Assembly: GCA_021604005.1 (NCBI GenBank)
Contig: BQIV01000023.1
Location: forward strand, 1 to 64,000
DNA from: Nitrospirales bacterium
GTDB lineage: Bacteria; Nitrospirota; Nitrospiria; Nitrospirales; UBA8639
Length of the DNA stretch: 64,000 bases
Direction: 5' to 3'
The notes beneath the pieces are model-generated. The model did no database searches and was not told the origin of the DNA. It saw only the letters and a list, made by a program, of their open reading frames with translations. Position numbers and translations under genes: made by a program. Shown here piece after piece: positions 8,057-41,108 of this stretch. The stretch's first letter is position 1, and every line of letters begins with the position of its first letter.

Positions 8057-9442
8057 ATGACACAGACTGCGCAAGATTGGCTCGAAGACCTAGAGGACGT
8101 TGATGATGCCACTCGCGAAGAAGCGGCAAAATCATTGGCTGAACTGGGTGACCCCACAACGCTTGAACCGCTCTTGGCAGCCATTGAAGATGACTATTGG
8201 GCGGTTCGAGTCCAGATAGGATGGGCGCTCGCAAAAATTGGTGGCAAACGAGCTATTGAAGGGCTCATTACCCTGTTTAACGATAATATGATGGAGGTCC
8301 AAAGTGAAGCGGTGCAAGCGATGGCTTCAATCGGCCAGTCAGTTTCACCTCACTTACTTACGTGCTTGAAAGATACACGGTGGAGAGTACGGGAACAGGC
8401 AGCGAAAGTGCTTGGAGAATTGAAAGATGCTCAAGCTGTCAAAGGCCTCACGCTCGCCTGTCGGGACCGTGATGGAGCCGTCAAAAGCGCGGCTGCAGAA
8501 GCGTTAGGAAAAATTGGAGACCCTCAAGGCATTCCTCCACTCATTAAACTCTTTAAAGATACATCGAAGATCGTACGAGAAACTGCAGGGACCGCATTGG
8601 TCACTATTGGCGCACCTTCTGTTGGGGCCTTAATTGAAACGCTCAAAGACCCACATTTTGTCGTTCGATGTCATGGGGTTCGCGCACTCGGCGGCATGAC
8701 AACCGACTATCAGATAGGTCGGGCTTGGGTCAAAGAGACCCGTGTCGTTGAAGCCCTAATTGAACTCCTCAAAGATCCAGATCGGGCCGTTCGAGAAGAT
8801 GCCACCATCGCATTGGGGAATATTGGTGATCCCGCTGCAGTCGATGGCTTACTTGAAGCGATGAAGGATGGATCCGTCAAACGCCATGCCATTGCATCAC
8901 TCGGCATGATTGGCGACCCGCGAGCACTCCCTGCCGTGCTTGACGCACTGAAGGGCAAAGGCATTCATCAGCAGGGTGCGCCAACTCCTGGATGTATTAT
9001 CAGCGAAGAGCAGCTCATCAAAGAAGCAGCTGCAACAGCATTAGGTCACTTTCGACACCCAAGGGTTATTCCCGAACTTATTTTGCTTCTCAAGGATATC
9101 GTGTTACGTGACTATGCTGCAGCTTCCCTCGTACTCATTGGGGATAACGCGATAGAACCTCTCGTGTCATTTTTACATGACCCCGACCTCTCAAAGGTGG
9201 GCAAGGAAAGTGAGCGAGTCTTAGCCTTTGCGTCTACTCGCATGACGGCCTCCAGTGCGCTCAAAAAAGTCATACATGAAACGCTGGACAAATTAGGGTG
9301 GGAACCTGAAGTCGAAGAACAAGAATCCCAACAACAAGACCCTGAATATACAGACACATCAAACGTGCTAGGCTTAGAAGGCCGTTTTGGGACTTCTGGA
9401 GATTTTGCGAAACCCGCTAAAGATCTCAAAATAGAACGATAA
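8057..9442 (+). CDS. HEAT-repeat protein (PBS-lyase-like repeats), 461 aa
   Basis: Built almost wholly of ~31-residue HEAT repeats from residue ~5 to 415, with units such as PLIKLFKDTSKIVRETAGTAL and VEALIELLKDPDRAVREDA. HEAT solenoids bind proteins; no catalytic motif is seen. A break in the repeat occurs at about 300-330 (GAPTPGCIISEEQ), and a charged tail follows LDKLGWEP. No signal peptide is present, so it is probably cytoplasmic. It follows the small secreted protein by 32 nt and ends at a strong terminator, closing the 6530-9442 group. Four further HEAT genes lie at 13.2-16.9 kb, with the methyltransferase and BCCT genes between. Confidence 0.88.
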   Translation: MTQTAQDWLEDLEDVDDATREEAAKSLAELGDPTTLEPLLAAIEDDYWAVRVQIGWALAKIGGKRAIEGLITLFNDNMMEVQSEAVQAMASIGQSVSPHLLTCLKDTRWRVREQAAKVLGELKDAQAVKGLTLACRDRDGAVKSAAAEALGKIGDPQGIPPLIKLFKDTSKIVRETAGTALVTIGAPSVGALIETLKDPHFVVRCHGVRALGGMTTDYQIGRAWVKETRVVEALIELLKDPDRAVREDATIALGNIGDPAAVDGLLEAMKDGSVKRHAIASLGMIGDPRALPAVLDALKGKGIHQQGAPTPGCIISEEQLIKEAAATALGHFRHPRVIPELILLLKDIVLRDYAAASLVLIGDNAIEPLVSFLHDPDLSKVGKESERVLAFASTRMTASSALKKVIHETLDKLGWEPEVEEQESQQQDPEYTDTSNVLGLEGRFGTSGDFAKPAKDLKIER

Positions 9443-9480
9443 CGTTTCTCCCAAACTTTCCTGTTTTTTCCTACCCAATA

Positions 9481-9515
9481 AAAAGGCCCATTCACAAAAG
9501 TGAATGGGCCTTTTT
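9481..9515. terminator. Bidirectional rho-independent terminator
   Basis: A perfect 11-bp stem (GGCCCATTCAC / GTGAATGGGCC, 9485-9510) with a 4-nt AAAA loop is flanked by A-tracts on the left and T-tracts on the right. It can therefore stop both the rightward HEAT gene and the leftward methyltransferase gene, which converge here. Confidence 0.95.
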
Positions 9516-9534
9516 ATTGGGCTTCTTGAAGACC

Positions 9535-11187
9535 TTACACTTTCTGAAAATGAAGAATCCCCCACGTAAGGTGACCAGCGTTTCCACCATCAATCCAATA
9601 CTGCAACCCTTCCTTCATTTTTTCGACATACCCTTCACTACAAACTTGGATGAGTGTATTACGATGTGCACTGATTTCCTTGAGAACTCGTCCATAATGA
9701 TTCGCCAATTGCTCCGAGAGGTCTAACACTTGAATTTCTTTTAGACCGAGCTCTGTTGCAAGCTTACGGTAATAGGGAATCGAACCAAGAGAGTCGAGAT
9801 GGATGCGGTCGAGAATCGGCTTCAATGACGACGATGGACAGTTTTCACTTTGCATCGGGTCGGTAAAAATAAATTGGCCACCTTTAGCTAAGACGCGGAC
9901 GACTTCTTCTATGACACGTTTTCTGTTCCCACTATGGAGAATGGCATCCTGAGACCACACGATATCCACAGATCCGTCAGGCAGTGGAATATCCTCAAAG
10001 CTCCCATCAACGACATTAATAGACAGGCTCATTCCCTGGATAGCATTGAGCTCACGATTCCGTTTATTTTGGATTTCGCTTAGGTTCAGGCACCCAACTT
10101 GACATCCAAAAGTCTTGGCTAAGAAACGTGCAGACCCGCCATATCCGGACCCAATATCAAGGACACGACTCTTTTGATCTATCCCCAGGACACAGGACGC
10201 CATTTTTTCAACAGTCCGCCGGCTGGCCTCTGAAATCGTATCGCTCTCTTTTTCATACAGTCCAACGTGAATATCTTCTCCACCCCAAATGGTGGCATAA
10301 AACCGGTCGGCATCCGAGCTATTATAATACTCTCTTGCCGTATCAACGGTTTGCGAGTAAGTCATTGCTTGGACTGGAGTATGTACCCGCTCTTCATTCC
10401 TATAACGCTTTTCAGCAACGTGGATAAAAAAGTCTGGATCTTCAACCTTATGCGTCTCTTGAAAATCCCCATACGTTTTAATTTGCTGAAACCCAACTTC
10501 ATGCATGAGGCGACGGGTATACTCTTTTCGAAGCGGATACATATTCAGGTGATACTGCGAGCCATCGGGGAATTGGTACTCAAATCGGGCAAGACCTTCG
10601 TCAACGTATTCAGGCTTGGCACTCACATTGTCGCCGCAATAATAATAGACGTGCTTGGATGTAAAACCGTTATCCAAAATACCGTCGTAGTTGCGCTGAT
10701 CAAGAATCAGAACGCCGTCATGCGTGAGCGCCGTATAAAACTCGGCTAAGGCCTTACGCCGATCCTGCTCGGAAAAGAGATGTGTGAGAGAGTTACCTAA
10801 ACAAATCACCGCATCAAACTTATTGTGTATATCCCGGCTAAGCCACCGCCAGTCCGCATGGACGGTCCTCATGATAAACCCGGCCTTGTTCGCATTTTCA
10901 AAGGCTTGTGCCAGCATCTCCGGACTCCCGTCGGCACTGGTTACATCAAACCCTGCTCGCAGAAGTCGTATAGAATGGAATCCTGTTCCAGTCGCAACAT
11001 CCAAAACACGTTTGACCCCTCGCTCCTGGAGAATTCGTATAAAAAAATCACCTTCACTTGACGCGCGAGCATCCCAATCAATCAGAGCATCCCACTTCTG
11101 GACAAAACCTTGCACATACTCCTTTTTATACTGATCGGTTTTCCGCTGAGCGATTGGGTTGTCGCCGTATTGTTGTTCTTTGGCCAT
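9535..11187 (-). CDS. Fused glycine/sarcosine and sarcosine/dimethylglycine N-methyltransferase
   Basis: Makes glycine betaine from glycine by three SAM-dependent methylations. Two class I methyltransferase domains lie in one 550-residue chain. The first (residues ~1-260) has VLDVATGTGFHSIRLL and resembles glycine-sarcosine methyltransferase (GSMT). The second (~280-550) has REYYNSSDADRFYATIWGG and VLDIGSGYGGSARFLA and resembles sarcosine-dimethylglycine methyltransferase (SDMT). The two are separate genes in many halotolerant bacteria and are fused in some actinobacteria (established, from memory). The divergent BCCT carrier 0.4 kb away would import the same solute. Osmotic induction is likely, but no site is identified. 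Confidence 0.9.
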   Translation of the reverse strand: MAKEQQYGDNPIAQRKTDQYKKEYVQGFVQKWDALIDWDARASSEGDFFIRILQERGVKRVLDVATGTGFHSIRLLRAGFDVTSADGSPEMLAQAFENANKAGFIMRTVHADWRWLSRDIHNKFDAVICLGNSLTHLFSEQDRRKALAEFYTALTHDGVLILDQRNYDGILDNGFTSKHVYYYCGDNVSAKPEYVDEGLARFEYQFPDGSQYHLNMYPLRKEYTRRLMHEVGFQQIKTYGDFQETHKVEDPDFFIHVAEKRYRNEERVHTPVQAMTYSQTVDTAREYYNSSDADRFYATIWGGEDIHVGLYEKESDTISEASRRTVEKMASCVLGIDQKSRVLDIGSGYGGSARFLAKTFGCQVGCLNLSEIQNKRNRELNAIQGMSLSINVVDGSFEDIPLPDGSVDIVWSQDAILHSGNRKRVIEEVVRVLAKGGQFIFTDPMQSENCPSSSLKPILDRIHLDSLGSIPYYRKLATELGLKEIQVLDLSEQLANHYGRVLKEISAHRNTLIQVCSEGYVEKMKEGLQYWIDGGNAGHLTWGILHFQKV

Positions 11188-11584
11188 AGGTTGCTCCCGC
11201 TAGCTTTTGCCCAACTGAATTAGGCAGAGTAAAAGGAAAAAGGCAAAATAGCAAAGGACCCATGCGCCCCTACGAGCTGCAGGAAGCCCTCAAAATCTCG
11301 CGACAGTCTAACGAGTTCTAAGACCTCCTGCAACCCCTTCCGGTCTTTATCGACCATTATTTCTGGCATAAATAAATTTAAAAATACAATAAAAACATAT
11401 GCTTGCGTACTCAATTCCGAGAAAGACCCGATGGATGTCGTCCATGAAGACTCTAGGGAACCTCTAGGCTGAACGTCAGTAAAGCCAGTGCTGACAGCGT
11501 TGTTTCCTGGTCCCCGTTATTAGCATGTCTTATACTTTTGTCTTGTTCACGGTAATAATTTGTGCTATCCCCAAGACAATCTGC
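11188..11584. other. Divergent intergenic region between betaine synthesis and BCCT genes
   Basis: Should contain both promoters. No clear -35/-10 pair or operator is seen. A 64-codon leftward frame at 11220-11414 has no family signature and no good ribosome-binding site, so it is not called. Confidence 0.4.
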
Positions 11585-13078
11585 ATGAACATTCAATCAA
11601 CGACCCCTGTCTTCAAAATTTCCCTATTCCTTGCGCTCTCCTTCCTTGGGTGGGGAACTTTTGCACCAAACCATCTCGCCGAAGTGACTGGGGCAGCTCA
11701 AAAATCTCTCTTAGATTCCTTCGGATGGTTTTATGTCCTTGCAGCCTCAACCTTCCTACTCGCGGCTTTGTCTCTCATTTTCTCTCGCTATGGGAATATC
11801 CCTCTGGGCCCTGATGGAGCTAAACCCGAATTTCCCCTGCTTACGTGGTTTGCGATGCTCTTCTGCGCCGGAATGGGTATTGGCCTAGTCTTCTGGGGAG
11901 TGGCCGAACCCAACTCCCACCTCCATGTACCTCCAACAGGACAACCGAATACACCTGAAGCGGCGCGAATGGCCATACGCTATAGCTTCTTTCATTGGGG
12001 CCTTCACCCCTGGGGTATTTACACCATGGTGGCCTTAGTCTTGGCATATTTTCAATTCCGGAAAGGCGTTCCCGGACTCATCAGCCTCAGCTGCAAACCC
12101 ATTATTGGCAAACATGCCAATGGAGTCTTAGGGAGTACCATAGACACCATCGCCGTGTTTGCCACAGTTTTCGGAGTGGCAACATCGTTAGGGTTTGGGG
12201 CGGTACAAATCAGCGGGGGACTTTCCTACCTATTTGGGATACCAAATACATTGGGGACTCAACTGACATTAATTGGCATTGTGACAGTCCTGTATATGCT
12301 TTCGGCTCAGACGGGCTTGCAGCGTGGCATTAGATACTTAAGCAACTTGAACATGATCCTGGCTTCGACGCTTCTGTGTTTCCTCCTTTTTTTAGGACCA
12401 ACAAAGTTTATTATGGAGATCTTCTCCTCTGGGCTCGGAAACTATTTGCAAAACCTCCCCACGATGAGTCTCAACTTAGCCCCGTTGACTGATTCGACTT
12501 GGATTCACGACTGGACACTGTTTTATTGGGCCTGGTGGATTGCCTGGGCGCCGTTTGTAGGAACGTTTATCGCCCGTATCTCCAAAGGACGCACCGTTCG
12601 TGAGTTTGTCCTCGGGACTCTTCTGGTGCCTACACTATTTTGTGCCTTCTGGTTTTCAGTCTTTGGCGGCACGACTATCTCACTTGAATTGTTCAATCAC
12701 GTGCCGATAGGCGAAACCATCGACAAAAACGGTATTGAAGTCGCCTTATTCACGGTTTTAGAACAATTCCCATTGGGAACATTCATGTCGATGATTGCCA
12801 TTTTTCTAATTGGCACATTTTTTATCACCTCTGCGGATTCAGCCACGTTTGTTCTCGGCACTTTGACGACACATGGTAGCTTAAATCCTCCCAACCATAT
12901 TAAGTTCACATGGGGAATCATCCAGTCGGTTTCCGCTGCCGTCCTTCTGTGGTCCGGAGGACTCGAAGCGCTTCAAACAGGGTCCATTATTGCAGCCTTT
13001 CCGTTCGCATTCATCATTATTCTGATGATTCTCTCCCTCTTAAAATCATTCAAACGCGAAGTCCAACCACACCCCTAA
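11585..13078 (+). CDS. BCCT-family betaine/choline/carnitine transporter
   Basis: Secondary uptake system for quaternary-ammonium osmolytes such as glycine betaine. The 497-residue form starts at the ATG at 11585 (MNIQSTTPVFK); an in-frame ATG at 11525 would add 20 hydrophobic residues. There are about twelve membrane helices, with the family signatures GMGIGLVFWGVAEP in helix 3-4 and WTLFYWAWWIAWAPFVGTFIARIS in helix 8, whose Trp-rich segment is part of the betaine-binding site. The short C-terminal tail (RSFKREVQPHP-like) lacks the long regulatory extension of BetP. Its position opposite the GSMT-SDMT fusion supports betaine as substrate; the coupling ion is not determined. Confidence 0.92.
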   Translation: MNIQSTTPVFKISLFLALSFLGWGTFAPNHLAEVTGAAQKSLLDSFGWFYVLAASTFLLAALSLIFSRYGNIPLGPDGAKPEFPLLTWFAMLFCAGMGIGLVFWGVAEPNSHLHVPPTGQPNTPEAARMAIRYSFFHWGLHPWGIYTMVALVLAYFQFRKGVPGLISLSCKPIIGKHANGVLGSTIDTIAVFATVFGVATSLGFGAVQISGGLSYLFGIPNTLGTQLTLIGIVTVLYMLSAQTGLQRGIRYLSNLNMILASTLLCFLLFLGPTKFIMEIFSSGLGNYLQNLPTMSLNLAPLTDSTWIHDWTLFYWAWWIAWAPFVGTFIARISKGRTVREFVLGTLLVPTLFCAFWFSVFGGTTISLELFNHVPIGETIDKNGIEVALFTVLEQFPLGTFMSMIAIFLIGTFFITSADSATFVLGTLTTHGSLNPPNHIKFTWGIIQSVSAAVLLWSGGLEALQTGSIIAAFPFAFIIILMILSLLKSFKREVQPHP

Positions 13079-13228
13079 CCCCCGCATCACGCTAAAGCCA
13101 TCGCATCAGTTGACCCCCCAAAAAACGCTATGCTAACGTGAGTTGGCTCATCACGGAATTTCCACGATTTATCAAAGACCTGGGGCAGGTTCTGATTTTG
13201 CCAGAATATTACCTAGGAATATTTTATT

Positions 13229-14320
13229 ATGGCAGACAGTGTAGCCGAACATATTGCGGCTCTCAACGACAGCGATTGGGGAGTCCGTGAAGACGCGGCC
13301 TCCGCACTGGGAACCTTTCAAGACCCTCGAAGCGTCCAACCACTTATTCGAGCACTTAAAGACTCCGACCGGGCAGTTCGCATGGCAGCTACGGCCTCGC
13401 TCACGGCGATCGGAGAACCTGCCGTCTTGCCCCTCGGTCACTCGCTTCAAGATCTCGACCTCAATGTTCAGGAAATAGCTGCCTCGATTCTTGTCACAAT
13501 TGGCGATACCCGCGTCGTCGACCCTCTGATTGCCGCACTGTTGAACCCGAATTGGATTGTGCGTAGCCATGCCGCCAAGGCACTCGGAAAGATTGGCGAT
13601 CCACGAGCCATCGAGACACTCATCTTATTACTCCAAGACAAGGTTCCCGCTGTACGAGATGACGCAGGAGCAGCCATTGCCGCTTTGGGTGAGGCGTCCA
13701 TCCCTCCCCTGCTACTGCTGTTACAAGATTCAGACTGGAAAGTGCGTCTCCACGCAGTCGAAGCCTTAGCCTTATTGAAACATCAAGCAGCCGTCGAACC
13801 TCTGCTTACGCTTATGACGAACGATCCTGACACAGCCGTCAAGCAGGACGCGATTCGTGCGCTGGGAGAAATAGGTGACCGGAGAGCGGTCAATGCCCTC
13901 TTATCGATTCTTGACCATCCCACGTTAAAAACTCCGGCGATTACGGCGCTCGGTAAGATCGGTGACGCAGAAGCACTCCCCACATTGACGAAGATTATTA
14001 ACGGCTTAGTGACAAAATCCTATGAAGGACGCATGGCGGCGTGCGAAGATAACTTGTATCAGGAAGACCTGCCTCCGGTTGAAGCTGCCGTCAAAGCTTT
14101 AGCGCAAATCGGTGACGCAGGTGCCATTCCAACACTGCAACAGGCATTGAAAAGCACACTCATTCGCGTTGAAGCCGCTGACGCGTTGACCCACTTTGGC
14201 AAACAAGCCGTATCGCCACTTGTGGCTATGTACAAAACTGAAACGGATGACAATATACGGTTCCACGTCAAAGAGACGCTTACGCGCTTAGGCTGGAGAC
14301 CCGGACAAATTCGGCTATAA
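13229..14320 (+). CDS. HEAT-repeat protein, 363 aa
   Basis: About eleven HEAT repeats from residue 3 onward (for example HIAALNDSDWGVREDAASAL and VQPLIRALKDSDRAVRMAA). Near residues 250-285 the pattern is interrupted by a non-repeat insert, YEGRMAACEDNLYQEDL, at the same relative place as the insert of the 8057-9442 protein. The chain ends LTRLGWRPGQIRL, a C-terminal motif shared with three other HEAT genes here. No signal peptide is seen. It is the first of four consecutive rightward HEAT genes, with a 32-nt gap to the next. Probably a protein-binding scaffold; the partner is unknown. Confidence 0.88.
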   Translation: MADSVAEHIAALNDSDWGVREDAASALGTFQDPRSVQPLIRALKDSDRAVRMAATASLTAIGEPAVLPLGHSLQDLDLNVQEIAASILVTIGDTRVVDPLIAALLNPNWIVRSHAAKALGKIGDPRAIETLILLLQDKVPAVRDDAGAAIAALGEASIPPLLLLLQDSDWKVRLHAVEALALLKHQAAVEPLLTLMTNDPDTAVKQDAIRALGEIGDRRAVNALLSILDHPTLKTPAITALGKIGDAEALPTLTKIINGLVTKSYEGRMAACEDNLYQEDLPPVEAAVKALAQIGDAGAIPTLQQALKSTLIRVEAADALTHFGKQAVSPLVAMYKTETDDNIRFHVKETLTRLGWRPGQIRL

Positions 14321-14352
14321 CCAACATTTTCGACACACCTGCGATTGTCAGC

Positions 14353-15438
14353 ATGCCAAAAGAAACATTAGAAACACTCATCTCCGAACTCAATCACGAA
14401 GAAGACTGGCGACGCATGCGCTCAACCGTGGCCTGTCTCAAGGGTGGCCCCCCGGCTGTTGCCGGCTTGATCGAGGCCATGGCACAGGGCACGCCTGAAT
14501 ACAAAGTTGAAGCGGTCAGGATGCTCGCACGCATTCGGGATCCCCATGCCGGTATTCCCATTGTCAAAATGATCGCAGATGAGAATGAGGCCGTGAGCAA
14601 GGCCGCCCTGGCCTCGCTGGAACAGATGGCGGGAATTTTGGATAAACCCACCGCCGCGGAACTGGTGAAACTGCTCAAAGATGAGCAACACAAAGAATCG
14701 GTGACTGCGTTGCTTGGCTCTATTCCCACATCCATTGGGCCATTAACGGAAATGCTCCGTGACCCTGAGGAATCCGCACGAGTTACCGCAGCCACGATTC
14801 TTGACCATCTTCTGGATCCACGCTCAGCGGATGCGTTGGTCGATGCGATGGGCGATCCTGCGATTAGCCATATTACAATGGAGACGCTTCGAAAACTCAG
14901 CGCGATTCGAGATCGCATTAATGAAGTGATGAATGAACTCGCCAATGTTGAAGAATCCGAACTTCGAGAAGGCGCAAGGCAAGAAGCCGTCATTAAGCTC
15001 CATCCCATTGGCCGTCCCGCAGTGGAAATCCTGATTGAATATCTTGAAGACGACGACTGGGTTGTCCGAGAAGCGGCAGCTGATGTCTTGGGGAAAATTT
15101 CAGATGTTCGCGCCGTCGAACCGTTAATGGAACGACTACGCGTCGATGGTGACACAGGCGTGAAAGAGCTGGCCACAAAATCGTTAGGACTTCTGGGCGA
15201 CGCGCGTCCCGTCGACTTGCTTGTCGAAATCATTCCCATTCGCCCTCTGCGTGTGTTAGCTGTTGAGGCATTGGAAAAGATTAAAGATGTCGAAGTGCTG
15301 CGGCCACATGTAGAACTTTTTAAAAAACTGAAGACCGATCGAGACGGATTGATCTCATATAATTCCGGAATCATTCTTGACAAATTGGCCGCGCTTGACG
15401 CTCAATTGGATGAGCAGGCTTGGGCAGGAAAGGAATAA
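14353..15438 (+). CDS. HEAT-repeat protein, 361 aa
   Basis: Second gene of the HEAT run. Repeats are clear but more diverged in the first half (WRRMRSTVACLKGGPPAVAG, MLARIRDPHAGIPIVKMI) and canonical around residues 220-290 (VEILIEYLEDDDWVVREAAA). Two breaks, near residues 120 and 190-215, look like non-repeat helices. Unlike the other four proteins it lacks the terminal LGWxP motif and ends in a charged QLDEQAWAGKE tail. The next gene's ATG lies 5 nt after this stop, so the two are probably translationally coupled. Confidence 0.85.
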   Translation: MPKETLETLISELNHEEDWRRMRSTVACLKGGPPAVAGLIEAMAQGTPEYKVEAVRMLARIRDPHAGIPIVKMIADENEAVSKAALASLEQMAGILDKPTAAELVKLLKDEQHKESVTALLGSIPTSIGPLTEMLRDPEESARVTAATILDHLLDPRSADALVDAMGDPAISHITMETLRKLSAIRDRINEVMNELANVEESELREGARQEAVIKLHPIGRPAVEILIEYLEDDDWVVREAAADVLGKISDVRAVEPLMERLRVDGDTGVKELATKSLGLLGDARPVDLLVEIIPIRPLRVLAVEALEKIKDVEVLRPHVELFKKLKTDRDGLISYNSGIILDKLAALDAQLDEQAWAGKE

Positions 15439-15443
15439 AAACG

Positions 15444-16214
15444 ATGGAGGAATCCAATCGCGTTGAACAACTACTCGCATCTCTTCGGGATGATAACGAA
15501 GCCCTCCGGAATCATGCGGCCACAAATCTGAGTCAAATCGGAGAAGTGGCTGTTCCTAAGTTAATCAATCTCTTCCTGGAAGATGATTTAGTCGTTCGAG
15601 AAGCGGCAGCCAGCGCCGTCGCACAGATAGGGGAACCGGCGATCGAACCATTAATCGAAGCGCTTGCCGAAGATGAAGAATGGATGGTCAGAGAGCAAGC
15701 CGCCTCGGCTCTGGGAAAAATCAAATCACCTCGTGGAGTTGCCCCCCTCATGAAGGCTCTCCAAGGGGATAAAGATGGTGCCGTCCGTAACGCAGCCGTC
15801 TGGGCATTAGAGCGAATTGGCGATCCCGAAGCCGTCCCGGCACTCGTTGAAGCGTTGACGGATGCCACGCTACGCGAAGATGCTGCCCGTGTTTTGAAAA
15901 AAATTGGAGATTCTCGAGCAACAGACGCTCTGATTCAAGAACTGCAAGGACCGAATTGGATCGTCCGCCGGCATGCCGCAGAAGCCCTAGGGAAAATTGG
16001 CGATCCACGTGGCGTCGACCCATTAGTGCAATCCTTAGCCGATGAGGATTGGTTAGTTCGACGAAACGCTGTAGAATCTCTCGCACGATTAGGTGACAAG
16101 CGGGTCGTGACGTCGCTCGTGCCCATGCTGGAAGACGAAAACGAAATGGTTCGAGACACAGTCGAAGGAGCCCTCAGTAGTTTTGGGTGGACTCCGGATT
16201 CCGCAAAATCATAA
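15444..16214 (+). CDS. HEAT-repeat protein, 256 aa
   Basis: The ATG at 15444 is chosen over an in-frame TTG at 15420: it follows a GGAAAGGA ribosome-binding site and removes the overlap with the upstream gene. The protein is eight nearly regular 31-residue HEAT units (for example VPKLINLFLEDDLVVREAAA, VDPLVQSLADEDWLVRRNAV) with an Asp/Glu-rich concave-face pattern and ends LSSFGWTPDSAKS. It is the most regular solenoid of the set. It lacks a signal peptide and any catalytic motif. Confidence 0.87.
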   Translation: MEESNRVEQLLASLRDDNEALRNHAATNLSQIGEVAVPKLINLFLEDDLVVREAAASAVAQIGEPAIEPLIEALAEDEEWMVREQAASALGKIKSPRGVAPLMKALQGDKDGAVRNAAVWALERIGDPEAVPALVEALTDATLREDAARVLKKIGDSRATDALIQELQGPNWIVRRHAAEALGKIGDPRGVDPLVQSLADEDWLVRRNAVESLARLGDKRVVTSLVPMLEDENEMVRDTVEGALSSFGWTPDSAKS

Positions 16215-37009: not shown

Positions 37010-37261
37010 ATGAGCAATCTTGCACGCAACCCGAAACAGATCGGCAATCTGATCCGCCAAGCCCGGAAAGAGCGGAGCTTGAGCCAGGCGCAGCTTGGTG
37101 AAAAGACAGGATTGCGTCAGGCGACTATTTCGCAGATCGAAACCGGGAATCCGGCGGCAACCATGGAAACCATCCTTGCGGTTTTGGCTGTTCTTGATCT
37201 GGAGTTTCGGATCGTGCGTCGATCCAAAGGAACGGCTGCCGCGATCGAGGATATTTTCTGA
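37010..37261 (+). CDS. hipB: HipB-type XRE-family antitoxin/repressor
   Basis: An 83-residue helix-turn-helix protein: IGNLIRQARKERSLSQAQLG followed by RQATISQIETGNPAATMETI at residues ~10-50 is the XRE/Cro fold, with a short C-terminal strand EFRIVRR used for dimer contact in HipB. It lies directly upstream of hipA and overlaps its start (stop/start ATGG junction at 37261). It binds the three upstream palindromes (inference from geometry) and neutralises HipA. Confidence 0.92.
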   Translation: MSNLARNPKQIGNLIRQARKERSLSQAQLGEKTGLRQATISQIETGNPAATMETILAVLAVLDLEFRIVRRSKGTAAAIEDIF

Positions 37262-38586
37262 TGGCACGGTCCCGCCAACATCGTCCGCTACGTGTGCTAT
37301 TAAACAATCGCCTGGTTGGTCAACTTGAGAAGGCGGTGAGCGGAGCTGTCGCTTTTCAGTATGACCAAAGCTGGCTGGCGTGGAAACATGCGATTCCGAT
37401 TTCGCTTTCCCTGCCATTACGGGAAGATCCGTTCCGTGGGGAACCGGTCATGGCAGTGTTTGAAAATCTTTTGCCGGACTCCGACGCACTCCGCCGGCGT
37501 GTGGCGGAAAAAGTTGGCACGGCAGGGACTGATGCCTACAGACTACTTGCGGCCATTGGCCGAGACTGTGTCGGAGCATTGCAATTTATCAGTAACGATG
37601 AAGCGGTTCCTACCTTAGGGGCCATGGACATTTCCGGCGAGGCAGTCACGAATGTAGCCATAGAAAAACTGCTTAATAATTTAGCGCAAGCACCTATGGG
37701 GCTGAGCCGTGATGATGCGTTTCGGATATCAATAGCCGGGGGCCAGGAAAAAACGGCACTACTTCGGTATAAGGGAAAGTGGTTCAAACCACATGGGACG
37801 ACACCGACTACCCATATTTTCAAAAAACAGATCGGTCGGTTACCGAACGGCCTTGATCTTTCGAGCAGTGTCGAAAATGAATATTACTGTCTGAAACTGG
37901 CAGCGGCTTTCGGCCTGCCGGCCGCCAAAGCGGATATTCACACATTTGGTAAGACACAGACACTGGTGATCGAACGCTTTGATCGTCGATGGACCAAAGA
38001 TAAGCGGCTCTTGCGTTTACCACAGGAGGATTGTTGCCAGGCGCTGTCCGTGCCGCCGACTAGAAAATATCAACGTGATGGCGGACCAGGAATAATCAAG
38101 GTTTTGGATCTACTCAAGGGCAGCGACAACCCTGGCGAAGACCAGAAAACCGTGTTGAAAGCACAAATTCTTTTCTGGTTGATTGGTGCCACAGAAGGAC
38201 ATGCCAAGAATTTCAGTCTCTTTCTTGGTCCGGGTGGGAGTTATTCGTTAACGCCGCTCTATGATGTACTCACTGCACAACCAAGCTTCCACGCAGGCCA
38301 GATCCAACGCAAGCAGATGAAACTCGCGATGTCAATTGGCACCAGCCGTCACTACCGAGTCAGCGAAATTATCAGGCGACATTTCATTCAGACTGGTGAT
38401 GCAGCCGGGTTGCCAAAAGCCCTGATTCGCGAATCGATAGAGGAAATGGTGGATAGGGGAAAGACGGCCATTCATACAATAGAAAGCGAATTACCAACTG
38501 ATTTTCCCGAGGTCATTCATACTGCAGTTCGGGATGCTCTGATCGATCGTCTAGCCAAACTACGGGTGAGTCGGCCAGCGGGATAA
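37261..38586 (+). CDS. hipA: HipA-family serine/threonine-kinase toxin
   Basis: A 441-residue HipA kinase; in E. coli it phosphorylates glutamyl-tRNA synthetase and causes growth arrest. Features in order: the N-terminal subdomain with FENLLPDSDALRRR (67-80); the P-loop/autophosphorylation site FRISIAGGQEKTALL (154-168, Ser157 equivalent to Ser150 of E. coli); the catalytic loop ATEGHAKNFS (310-319); and the metal Asp335 in PLYDV. The usual catalytic Asp (D309 in E. coli, 23 residues before the metal Asp) is Glu312 here, which may lower activity. The neighbours are hipB upstream and a decayed IS30 downstream. Confidence 0.92.
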   Translation: MARSRQHRPLRVLLNNRLVGQLEKAVSGAVAFQYDQSWLAWKHAIPISLSLPLREDPFRGEPVMAVFENLLPDSDALRRRVAEKVGTAGTDAYRLLAAIGRDCVGALQFISNDEAVPTLGAMDISGEAVTNVAIEKLLNNLAQAPMGLSRDDAFRISIAGGQEKTALLRYKGKWFKPHGTTPTTHIFKKQIGRLPNGLDLSSSVENEYYCLKLAAAFGLPAAKADIHTFGKTQTLVIERFDRRWTKDKRLLRLPQEDCCQALSVPPTRKYQRDGGPGIIKVLDLLKGSDNPGEDQKTVLKAQILFWLIGATEGHAKNFSLFLGPGGSYSLTPLYDVLTAQPSFHAGQIQRKQMKLAMSIGTSRHYRVSEIIRRHFIQTGDAAGLPKALIRESIEEMVDRGKTAIHTIESELPTDFPEVIHTAVRDALIDRLAKLRVSRPAG

Positions 38587-38945: not shown

Positions 38946-39919
38946 ATGGAAAAGCGGTATCGTCATTTCGATCACAAAGAACGTACACTCATTTATTGGT
39001 GGCAGAAAGAGTACCTTAGCCTCAGAGAAATCGGGCGACACTTGCGGTGCAGTCATACGAGTATAAGTCGCGAACTTCAACGGAACCTCTGGTGTGGGCA
39101 ACACTAGTATCCCCGAGGAGCGGAACTGATCGCGAAGGATCGCTTGCAGGGACGCGTGAAACGTGATCGCTTAAAATTAAATGCGGTCCGAGCATATGTG
39201 CAGCAGAAATTGCAATGTGGCTGGGCCCCGGAATTCATCGCTGGGCGCATACGTCACCAGGGCCAACGGTCTTCGGTCTGCCACGAATCGATCTGCTAAT
39301 ACATTTATGGGTTCGCGCCTCAGTTGATCATCTATTTGCCTCGCCAGCATTCCAAACGGAGAACGAAGCAACCGGCTCGAAAGACCGGTGAACGAATCCA
39401 GAACCAAACAGGCCTAGAGAGACGTCCGAAGGCGGCGACCGGGCGGCGAGTGTGTGATCACTGGGAGGCCGATACGCTGGTGGCGGAGGACAGGAAGCAT
39501 GGCCTGAATGTCTTGGGTGATCGCAGGAGTCGCCTGACTCATCTCAGTGTCTTCGCCACAAAGACGGCTGGAGACACGCAACAGGCCATTCGGCGTCGCT
39601 TGAAGGCCTAACCCAGTGCACTGAAGCAATCCATTACCTATGAGAACGGGAGTGACAATGTCTTCCATGACGAGGTCCATAGAGCCTTAGGCACGACGTC
39701 ATTCTTCTGTGCACCCTGCCATAGTTGGGAGAAAGGCAGTGTGGAGCACGTGAACAGCTTGATCAGACGGTTCCTCCCGAAAGGCACAAACTTTCAGCAC
39801 TTTGGACCGGCGACAGTGAATCGCATCGAAACGTTATTGAACAACCGACCGCGGAAATGTTTACACGATCGGGACCCCTTGAGGTCTTTCGCGAAGCCCG
39901 TCGTGCACTTCCACGTTGA
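38946..39919 (+). pseudogene. IS30-family transposase, decayed
   Basis: From ATG 38946 a single reading phase encodes the IS30 helix-turn-helix (HFDHKERTLIYWWQKEYLSL, LREIGRHLRCSHTSISREL), GWAPEFIAGRI, the DDE catalytic segments RVCDHWEADTLV and the region with TYENGSDNVFHDEV, and GSVEHVNSLIRRFLPKGT. It is interrupted by TAG at 39105, TAA at 39297 and TAA at 39609, all in frame, and needs one frameshift near 39875 to read the usual end PLEVFREARRALPR. The catalytic order is otherwise kept. Confidence 0.88.
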
Positions 39920-39936
39920 ATGTGGCATTTGGATGA

Positions 39937-40809
39937 CTATAACCGATGTATTTCCCGCTGCTCCATCGCATGAGTAACTGACGCGAGGAGGTTCTCATCC
40001 TCCAAAGGTTTGATCAGATAGTTGACGAGCATCCCGTGCGAGACCAGGCTAGCCAATGACTCGTTCTGGTGTAAATGGGTCTCCATCTCCGCCTCGTGCT
40101 GAACGACATTCCAAAGAAGTTTGGCGGATGCGCCTCCCAATACTTCCGTCCCCAGTCCCCTATGCTCAGCAATGAGTTGCTGCATGTGAGAGTCGCCGGT
40201 TACGTCCACGATCAGATCAGTGCCTTCCGAGGCAATCAGACTCATGGCATCGTGGACGACGGGAATACGTAGCTCATTGGCATGTTTCAGTGCTGGTGCG
40301 TCTGGATCTTTGTCGGTGATCCCGACAATCTCAATGCCGGGCATATGGCTGAATAGACTGAGCAGTGCGCTTCCACCTTTGCCGCCTCCTAGGATAGCGA
40401 TTTTTGTTGGTCCGGTATTCCCTGTCTCAAAATGCGGTACCCCGGTCAGGCCAATCAGGGAGATGCTCGGGTAATTCTTCTTGAAATAGGTGATGGCTTC
40501 CAGGCCCTTTTTCTTGGGGATATCCGTGATAATGACATCGACGTCAAAGCTATTCTCGCTCGAACCCATCGCCTCGATAGCTTTATCTCCGTTCTCTGTC
40601 TCAATCACGTCGTATCCGGCCCCCTCGAGCTTTACGCGTATATTTTCTCTGACATCCGACTCATCCTCGACGACCATCACACAGCCCTTTGTCTCCTTAG
40701 CTCTTTTTTTAGGAGACAGGAAACCTAGGCAGAGATACAAGACCCAGACCATCACAGCGAGGGCGACTACAATTCCCAGGTATCCCCAGAATCCCAGTGT
40801 TGTAAACAT
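39937..40809 (-). CDS. Membrane-anchored receiver domain interrupted by an NAD(P)-binding domain
   Basis: A 290-residue protein. Residues ~8-30 form a membrane helix. Residues 42-128 read as the first part of a response-regulator receiver: the acidic pair Glu48/Asp49, phospho-acceptor Asp96 in VIITDIPKKKGLE, and Thr122 in LIGLTG. Residues ~134-245 are a Rossmann domain (KIAILGGGKGGSALLSLF, TDLIVDVTGDS) like the N-terminus of homoserine or inositol dehydrogenases. Residues 250-290 then resume the receiver with the conserved Lys267-Pro268 (NYLIKPLEDENLLASV). The receiver thus seems split by an inserted domain. No kinase lies next to it. Confidence 0.82.
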   Translation of the reverse strand: MFTTLGFWGYLGIVVALAVMVWVLYLCLGFLSPKKRAKETKGCVMVVEDESDVRENIRVKLEGAGYDVIETENGDKAIEAMGSSENSFDVDVIITDIPKKKGLEAITYFKKNYPSISLIGLTGVPHFETGNTGPTKIAILGGGKGGSALLSLFSHMPGIEIVGITDKDPDAPALKHANELRIPVVHDAMSLIASEGTDLIVDVTGDSHMQQLIAEHRGLGTEVLGGASAKLLWNVVQHEAEMETHLHQNESLASLVSHGMLVNYLIKPLEDENLLASVTHAMEQREIHRL

Positions 40810-41108
40810 GTTGCCCCCCTTTCTGCTGTATGCCGCCTCTTAGGGTATATTCCCTGAGGAGACCATTCAGATTCCGCATCCATCGACCTCATGCGCCTAC
40901 TCGAGAAGTTTCCATTTCATTTTCAGCTCAACGCCTGCACAGGCTTCTGATTTTTTCACCGAGAATGAGACGATAACGCCCCCATGAAATTGTTGAGCCT
41001 GTAGTCCCACCTCAGATCGAGGTAGCTCCTCGTAAGGTAGGCAGCTAACCGAATTCCCGTCTGAACCTGTGGGCAGACAAAGTTGGCCCTTTAACCTCGT
41101 ACTGAAAA
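40810..41108. other. Intergenic region upstream of the receiver gene
   Basis: Should contain the promoter of the leftward receiver gene. The 120-codon frame at 40897-41259 lacks family features and overlaps the candidate small RNA; it is not called. Confidence 0.35.

Follow-up and report, generated by a model that had tools for sequence, protein, structure and literature searches.

A receiver domain interrupted by a Rossmann domain in Nitrospirales and its kinship to a regulator-histidine kinase gene pair

Introduction

Receiver domains are among the commonest domains of bacteria and are normally varied through domains added at their ends. A gene from a Nitrospirales bacterium raises the question of whether a receiver can also be built around another domain. 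A preliminary description, made from the DNA sequence, had read its product as a receiver whose last strand-helix unit lies beyond an inserted nucleotide-binding domain of the Rossmann type. We asked whether the two receiver segments belong to one domain, where the insert originated and what such a protein might do. By the window we mean the whole stretch of DNA that was analysed, which comprises 64,000 nucleotides of contig BQIV01000023.1.

Gene structure and domain composition

The gene had been located correctly in the preliminary description, which left its strand unstated; it is encoded on the minus strand (Table 1). Every residue singled out there, namely Glu48/Asp49, Asp96, Thr122, the GGGKGG loop (141-146) and Lys267-Pro268, is found in the 290-residue translation. 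The insert is about 125 residues long (127-250), and the protein carries no output domain. The HisKA and HATPase_c domains of a related kinase, described below, are absent from it, so that it does not qualify as a histidine kinase. A promoter scan found no sigma-70-like site.

Table 1. Coordinates of the split receiver-Rossmann gene and its parts within the window.
Feature	Position	Strand	Basis
Split receiver-Rossmann coding sequence, 290 aa	39937..40809	-	ATG at 40809, stop 39937-39939; stop-free translation
AGGGGGG, probable ribosome binding site just 5' of the ATG	40814..40820	-	sequence
Membrane helix at the N-terminus (residues 4-30), with a basic stretch after it	40720..40800	-	hydropathy, AF2; only in the window protein, L009 and L010
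Receiver part one, beta1-beta4 (residues 42-126), with Glu48, Asp49, Asp96 and Thr122	40432..40686	-	Pfam Response_reg 44-123; model
Asp96 and shortened beta3-alpha3 loop DIPKKKG (residues 96-102)	40504..40524	-	sequence comparison
Rossmann insert and its C-terminal helix (residues 127-250), in the beta4-alpha4 loop	40060..40431	-	Pfam, homology, model
Dinucleotide-binding loop GGGKGG (residues 141-146, GxGxxG)	40372..40389	-	Gly141, 143, 145 and 146 invariant in 19/19
Asp166, acidic end of Rossmann beta2, favours NAD(H)	40312..40314	-	invariant in 19/19 split proteins
Receiver part two, alpha4-beta5-alpha5 (residues 251-290)	39940..40059	-	homology, tail profile, model
Lys267-Pro268, conserved receiver Lys-Pro	40006..40011	-	MAFFT alignment, conservation

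The membrane tether that had been proposed is real in the window protein, where hydropathy reaches its maximum at residues 13-31 (Kyte-Doolittle 2.77) and AF2 places a helix at 4-30, but, being confined to this protein and its two closest relatives, it lies outside the core architecture. In most other split proteins the N-terminus is the own N-terminal motif of a soluble regulator. In the lineage of the window, the helix would anchor the split protein to the inner membrane.

Reconstitution of the receiver from its two parts

The Pfam Response_reg match at residues 44-123 scores 44.5 bits (cut-off 30.2) and covers only positions 1-78 of the 111 in the profile. When the insert (residues 126-248) is excised in silico, the score rises to 55.6 bits and the match extends to positions 1-110; a distant relative treated in this way likewise gives 1-110 of 111. 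When 19 normal response regulators were searched with a profile built from the tails of the split proteins alone, it matched the C-terminus of every one, with scores of 32-54 bits. In an unguided MAFFT alignment with 90 normal receivers, which came from viral contigs and had been pre-chosen for a terminal KP, their KP falls on K267-P268, their Asp on D96 and their Thr/Ser on T122, and the insert columns are empty of normal-receiver residues in 11 of 12 settings.

Structure prediction depended on the depth of the alignment. With three orthologues only, AF2 left the C-terminus unplaced (pLDDT under 50), which would fit a view of the protein as two adjacent domains, with a truncated receiver and a C-terminal KP segment that packs against the Rossmann domain; the many Foldseek alignments that covered only the first part of the receiver point the same way. 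With an alignment of 61 rows, to which normal receivers from viral contigs had been added for receiver depth, the residues of both parts close into one receiver (pLDDT 83, with beta5 at 263-266 and alpha5 at 271-289 reaching about 90), and VIA-align superposes 124 residues of the model, spanning 40 to 290, on NtrX at 1.8 A with a Z of 19.5. Together with the tail profile, which finds the C-termini of all 19 regulators, and the excision, which makes the receiver whole, this closed model leaves the arrangement as two adjacent domains very unlikely.

Since the 61-row alignment itself contains receivers and leans to the receiver fold, we take the model as support and not as proof. Its alpha4 is short (252-257), and because pLDDT is under 50 in the linkers 127-132 and 242-249, it supports neither a relative orientation of the two domains nor a rigid helix running from the Rossmann domain into alpha4. 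The excision, the tail profile and the MAFFT alignment thus agree with the predicted structure in returning the last strand-helix unit to the receiver, as the preliminary description had proposed, and closure of the receiver around the insert is supported by the model. By score, catalytic residues and predicted (beta-alpha)5 fold the protein belongs to the receiver family (PF00072). What sets it apart, and is its novel feature, is the non-contiguity of the receiver, contiguity being usual in that family and not strictly defining for it.

Catalytic residues and the shortened loop

Conservation was assessed over a set of 19 sequences, the window protein and 18 further ones. E48 and T122 are invariant in all of them, as are K267 and P268 in the 18 that are readable there. 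All five catalytic positions of the receiver are intact in 15 of the 19; three members carry substitutions (Asp96 to Asn in G066, Asp49 to Gly in the second copy of G006, Asp49 to Glu in G344) and one, from G285, has a masked C-terminus. The loop after Asp96, already suspected of being short, lacks two residues relative to ordinary regulators (DI--PKKKG vs DIRMPNMNG) throughout the group (19/19), and this deletion may weaken Mg2+ or phosphoryl chemistry.

These observations bear on the main rival to our interpretation, according to which the protein is a pseudo-receiver, a scaffold or dimerisation module that has lost phosphorylation, with NAD(H) binding by the Rossmann domain as the sole input. 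The universal deletion after Asp96 would agree with it, as would the three substituted members, in which the Rossmann fingerprint stays invariant, and the receiver score, which even after excision is below that of the normal regulator (55.6 vs 104.4 bits). Against this, Glu/Asp, Asp96, Thr122 and Lys267 have been kept in 15 of the 19 sequences through 42-48% identity, which would not be expected had phosphorylation been lost at the origin of the family. We therefore consider a pseudo-receiver unlikely, though not to be dismissed lightly. Among the individual members, L058:68-928 (G066) and L057:1538-2332 (second copy of G006) are two in which a catalytic residue is lost and the NAD(H) fingerprint is intact.

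The Rossmann insert

Residues 136-215 give weak Pfam matches to DapB_N (22.5 bits), GFO_IDH_MocA (20.5) and NAD_binding_3 (17.7), all three below the respective cut-offs of 25.6, 24 and 24; the insert is a divergent relative that falls in none of these families. It nevertheless has the GxGxxG after beta1 and the acidic residue ending beta2 (G141, G143, G146 and D166 in 19/19), and the residues invariant over the 19 sequences also include G145, D202, T204 and G205. By sequence profile, the solved structures that come closest to it are those of inositol dehydrogenases and of Rex, a sensor of NADH (PDB 5zz5, E 0.0013).

The NAD(P) binding that had been suggested for this domain is thus indicated by the invariant glycines and Asp166 and by distant similarity to inositol dehydrogenase and Rex; it is a prediction, and one that favors NAD(H) over NADP(H). 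By analogy with Rex and Gfo/Idh proteins, we infer that the domain binds NAD+/NADH. The presence of Gfo/Idh inositol dehydrogenases among the closest solved sequences might suggest a small NAD-dependent enzyme regulated by its receiver. This is highly improbable, as the protein has just the Rossmann half and lacks the catalytic C-terminal domain that Gfo/Idh and DapB proteins possess, and a histidine kinase carries this same half at its N-terminus. Without a catalytic domain, sensing is likelier than catalysis.

Origin from a regulator-kinase pair

Within the window, the statement that nearby genes give no partner holds. Elsewhere in the same genome, though, on contig C11, there is a related pair: a 144-residue regulator (L003:1468-1902) is followed 152 bp on by a 381-residue kinase (L003:2055-3200) composed of Rossmann, HisKA and HATPase_c domains. 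The window protein is 48% identical to the regulator at residues 37-128 and 57% at 253-288, and 50% identical to the kinase at 134-258. Many other genomes of the order also have this regulator-Rossmann kinase pair.

The N-terminal motif of the regulator, MxExKxAxMFGS, is retained in most split proteins (MTEPKTAAMFGS vs MSESKSAGMFSG). At the exit junction, homology to the kinase extends to SEKLAGM, directly before its H-box GTFASGIAHDINNP, and alpha4 of the regulator resumes there, which indicates that the Rossmann domain was spliced in before receiver alpha4 along with the helix that feeds the phospho-His helix of the kinase. In an unrooted receiver tree the split proteins form one clade (support 91/90), which is present in 88% of bootstrap trees. 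In the Rossmann tree one kinase falls among the split proteins, and a single clade is not rejected (p-AU 0.425).

The simplest reading of these sequence relationships is a single origin from the regulator-Rossmann kinase pair. A stretch of the kinase that begins close to the N-terminus and takes in the Rossmann domain and the helix leading to the phospho-His box would have been inserted between beta4 and alpha4 of the regulator, probably once and within this order of bacteria. Relatives of both source genes still adjoin in the same genome. Sequence comparisons alone establish the split architecture, its conservation and its kinship to both genes of the pair.

The pair is part of a conserved signalling cluster of redox flavour, in which L003:3-3200 encodes a PAS (or receiver-PAS-GAF) kinase, the 144-residue regulator and the Rossmann-HisKA-HATPase kinase; in L251:2424-10059 genes for a dCache-HAMP-PAS kinase and a Tll0287-like protein come after these three. 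That a histidine kinase should have a Rossmann domain at its N-terminus, as its probable sensor, is noteworthy in itself.

Distribution and genomic neighborhoods

Among 236 genomes of the order, 17 have the split arrangement, at 18 loci in all; they represent eight genera and two families. One further sequence, L009, also has it. No full-length match was found outside the order among 396 genomes sampled from the phylum, and a search for viral relatives of the split protein found none. The patchy distribution speaks against an essential role.

L009 (JAALKB010000128.1) is titled Gammaproteobacteria and encodes an orthologue 87% identical to the window protein. Horizontal transfer to Gammaproteobacteria, which this title would imply, was rejected. 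The record is likely mis-binned or misnamed, since proteins of the order considered here share 61-76% identity with a 539-residue neighbor of the gene, which looks NirA-like by eye.

An assembly or binning artefact that fused two genes is made conceivable by the adjoining IS30-like remnant and by the fragmented assembly of 92 contigs. However, the homologue search recovered the same split order in 18 other sequences from many independently assembled genomes, with varied neighborhoods and down to 42% identity, and dN/dS of the window gene is well under 1 (0.26 vs L009, 0.37 vs L010). The 18 relatives rule out assembly error as the source of the split order, and we give the artefact practically no weight.

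The neighborhoods of the split genes differ between genomes. The split gene of G066 is situated upstream of the signalling cluster, at a distance of about 1.5 kb and on the same strand, which is the one case among the split loci in which it was seen to adjoin a regulator-kinase pair and which qualifies the statement that no partner is nearby. The cluster there comprises, in order, a receiver-PAS-GAF kinase, the ordinary regulator, the Rossmann kinase, a dCache-HAMP-PAS kinase and the Tll0287-like protein, after which a succinate dehydrogenase/fumarate reductase-type flavoprotein is encoded. G006 has the regulator, dCache kinase and Tll0287-like gene of the cluster but lacks the intervening Rossmann kinase; it has two split genes. 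In the nine g4 genomes that carry a split gene, a closely related, full-length Rossmann kinase was not seen. It is suggestive that in such genomes (G006, g4) the split gene may functionally replace the Rossmann kinase.

Comparison with known systems

Single-domain response regulators of the CheY, Spo0F and DivK type share with the split protein the acidic pair, phospho-Asp, Thr and Lys as well as the lack of an output domain. The split protein differs from them in the Rossmann domain in its beta4-alpha4 loop, a beta3-alpha3 loop shorter by two residues and an optional membrane helix. The ordinary 144-residue regulator is homologous to it over both receiver parts, and shares its N-terminal motif with most split proteins, but its receiver is contiguous, with no insert and a normal DIRMPNMNG loop, and its gene stands in an operon-like cluster. 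The Rossmann-HisKA-HATPase kinase is about 50% identical to the split protein over the Rossmann domain and C-terminal helix to the H-box; after that helix the kinase continues with HisKA and HATPase, whereas the split protein continues with receiver alpha4-beta5-alpha5.

Rex, a sensor of NADH/NAD+, has a recognisably similar Rossmann domain, joined to a winged-helix DNA-binding domain and not to a receiver. The NAD(P)-binding domains of Gfo/Idh/MocA proteins and DapB have the same N-terminal Rossmann half, with GxGxxG and an acidic end of beta2; the split protein lacks their catalytic or substrate-binding domain and scores below the Pfam cut-offs. A search confined to open-access literature found no report of split or interrupted receivers or of receiver-Rossmann fusions.

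Proposed mechanism

In receivers generally, the beta4 Thr/Ser relays phosphorylation to the face formed by alpha4, beta5 and alpha5. Since the insert lies between that residue and that face, nucleotide binding and phosphorylation can be expected to affect each other. The interpretation that we favor, and hold to be fairly probable, is that of an orphan, effector-less regulator whose receiver is one folded domain with a kinase-family Rossmann domain in the beta4-alpha4 loop, nucleotide binding and phosphorylation being coupled. The nucleotide state of the Rossmann domain would move the beta4-alpha4 region, which rearranges on phosphorylation of the Asp; redox state would then bias phosphorylation or dephosphorylation, and phosphorylation would in turn bias nucleotide binding. 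As there is no output domain, the protein should act by protein contact or as a phosphate sink, and it may serve as a redox-gated sink or compete with the ordinary regulator for the cluster's kinases.

A bolder version, which we regard as possible and on balance doubtful, is that the sensor domain of a kinase was moved into the switch loop of a regulator from the same cluster, where NAD+/NADH binding would directly drive the switch and one domain pair would compute a redox-AND-phosphate signal without a kinase; in lineages that lost the Rossmann kinase, the split regulator would replace its sensing.

The putative allosteric ligand-binding domain occupies the beta4-alpha4 loop, which is the switch of the receiver, and a single small protein may respond to phosphate signals as well as to the redox state of the cell. 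If nucleotide binding and phosphorylation are coupled, the protein would be a natural counterpart of the domain-insertion switches made by engineers and would connect two-component signalling directly, at the molecular level, to NAD redox state.

Other features of the window

The sole PADLOC match to the split protein, PD-T4-6 (17.7 bits), covers residues 35-110, which are receiver; a role as a defence system was dismissed, the match being a generic one to receivers. At 38949-39930 (plus strand) a degenerate remnant of an IS30-like transposase, with its frame broken in several places, reaches the 3' end of the split gene, and its last reading frame (39741-39977) overlaps the stop codon of that gene. 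Positions 37010-38586 (plus strand) encode an HTH_3 regulator and, after it, a HipA-like kinase that has both HipA domains, likely a toxin-antitoxin pair of the HipBA type. Several reading frames at 8057-16214 (plus strand) resemble HEAT-repeat proteins, as judged by eye from their N-termini only.
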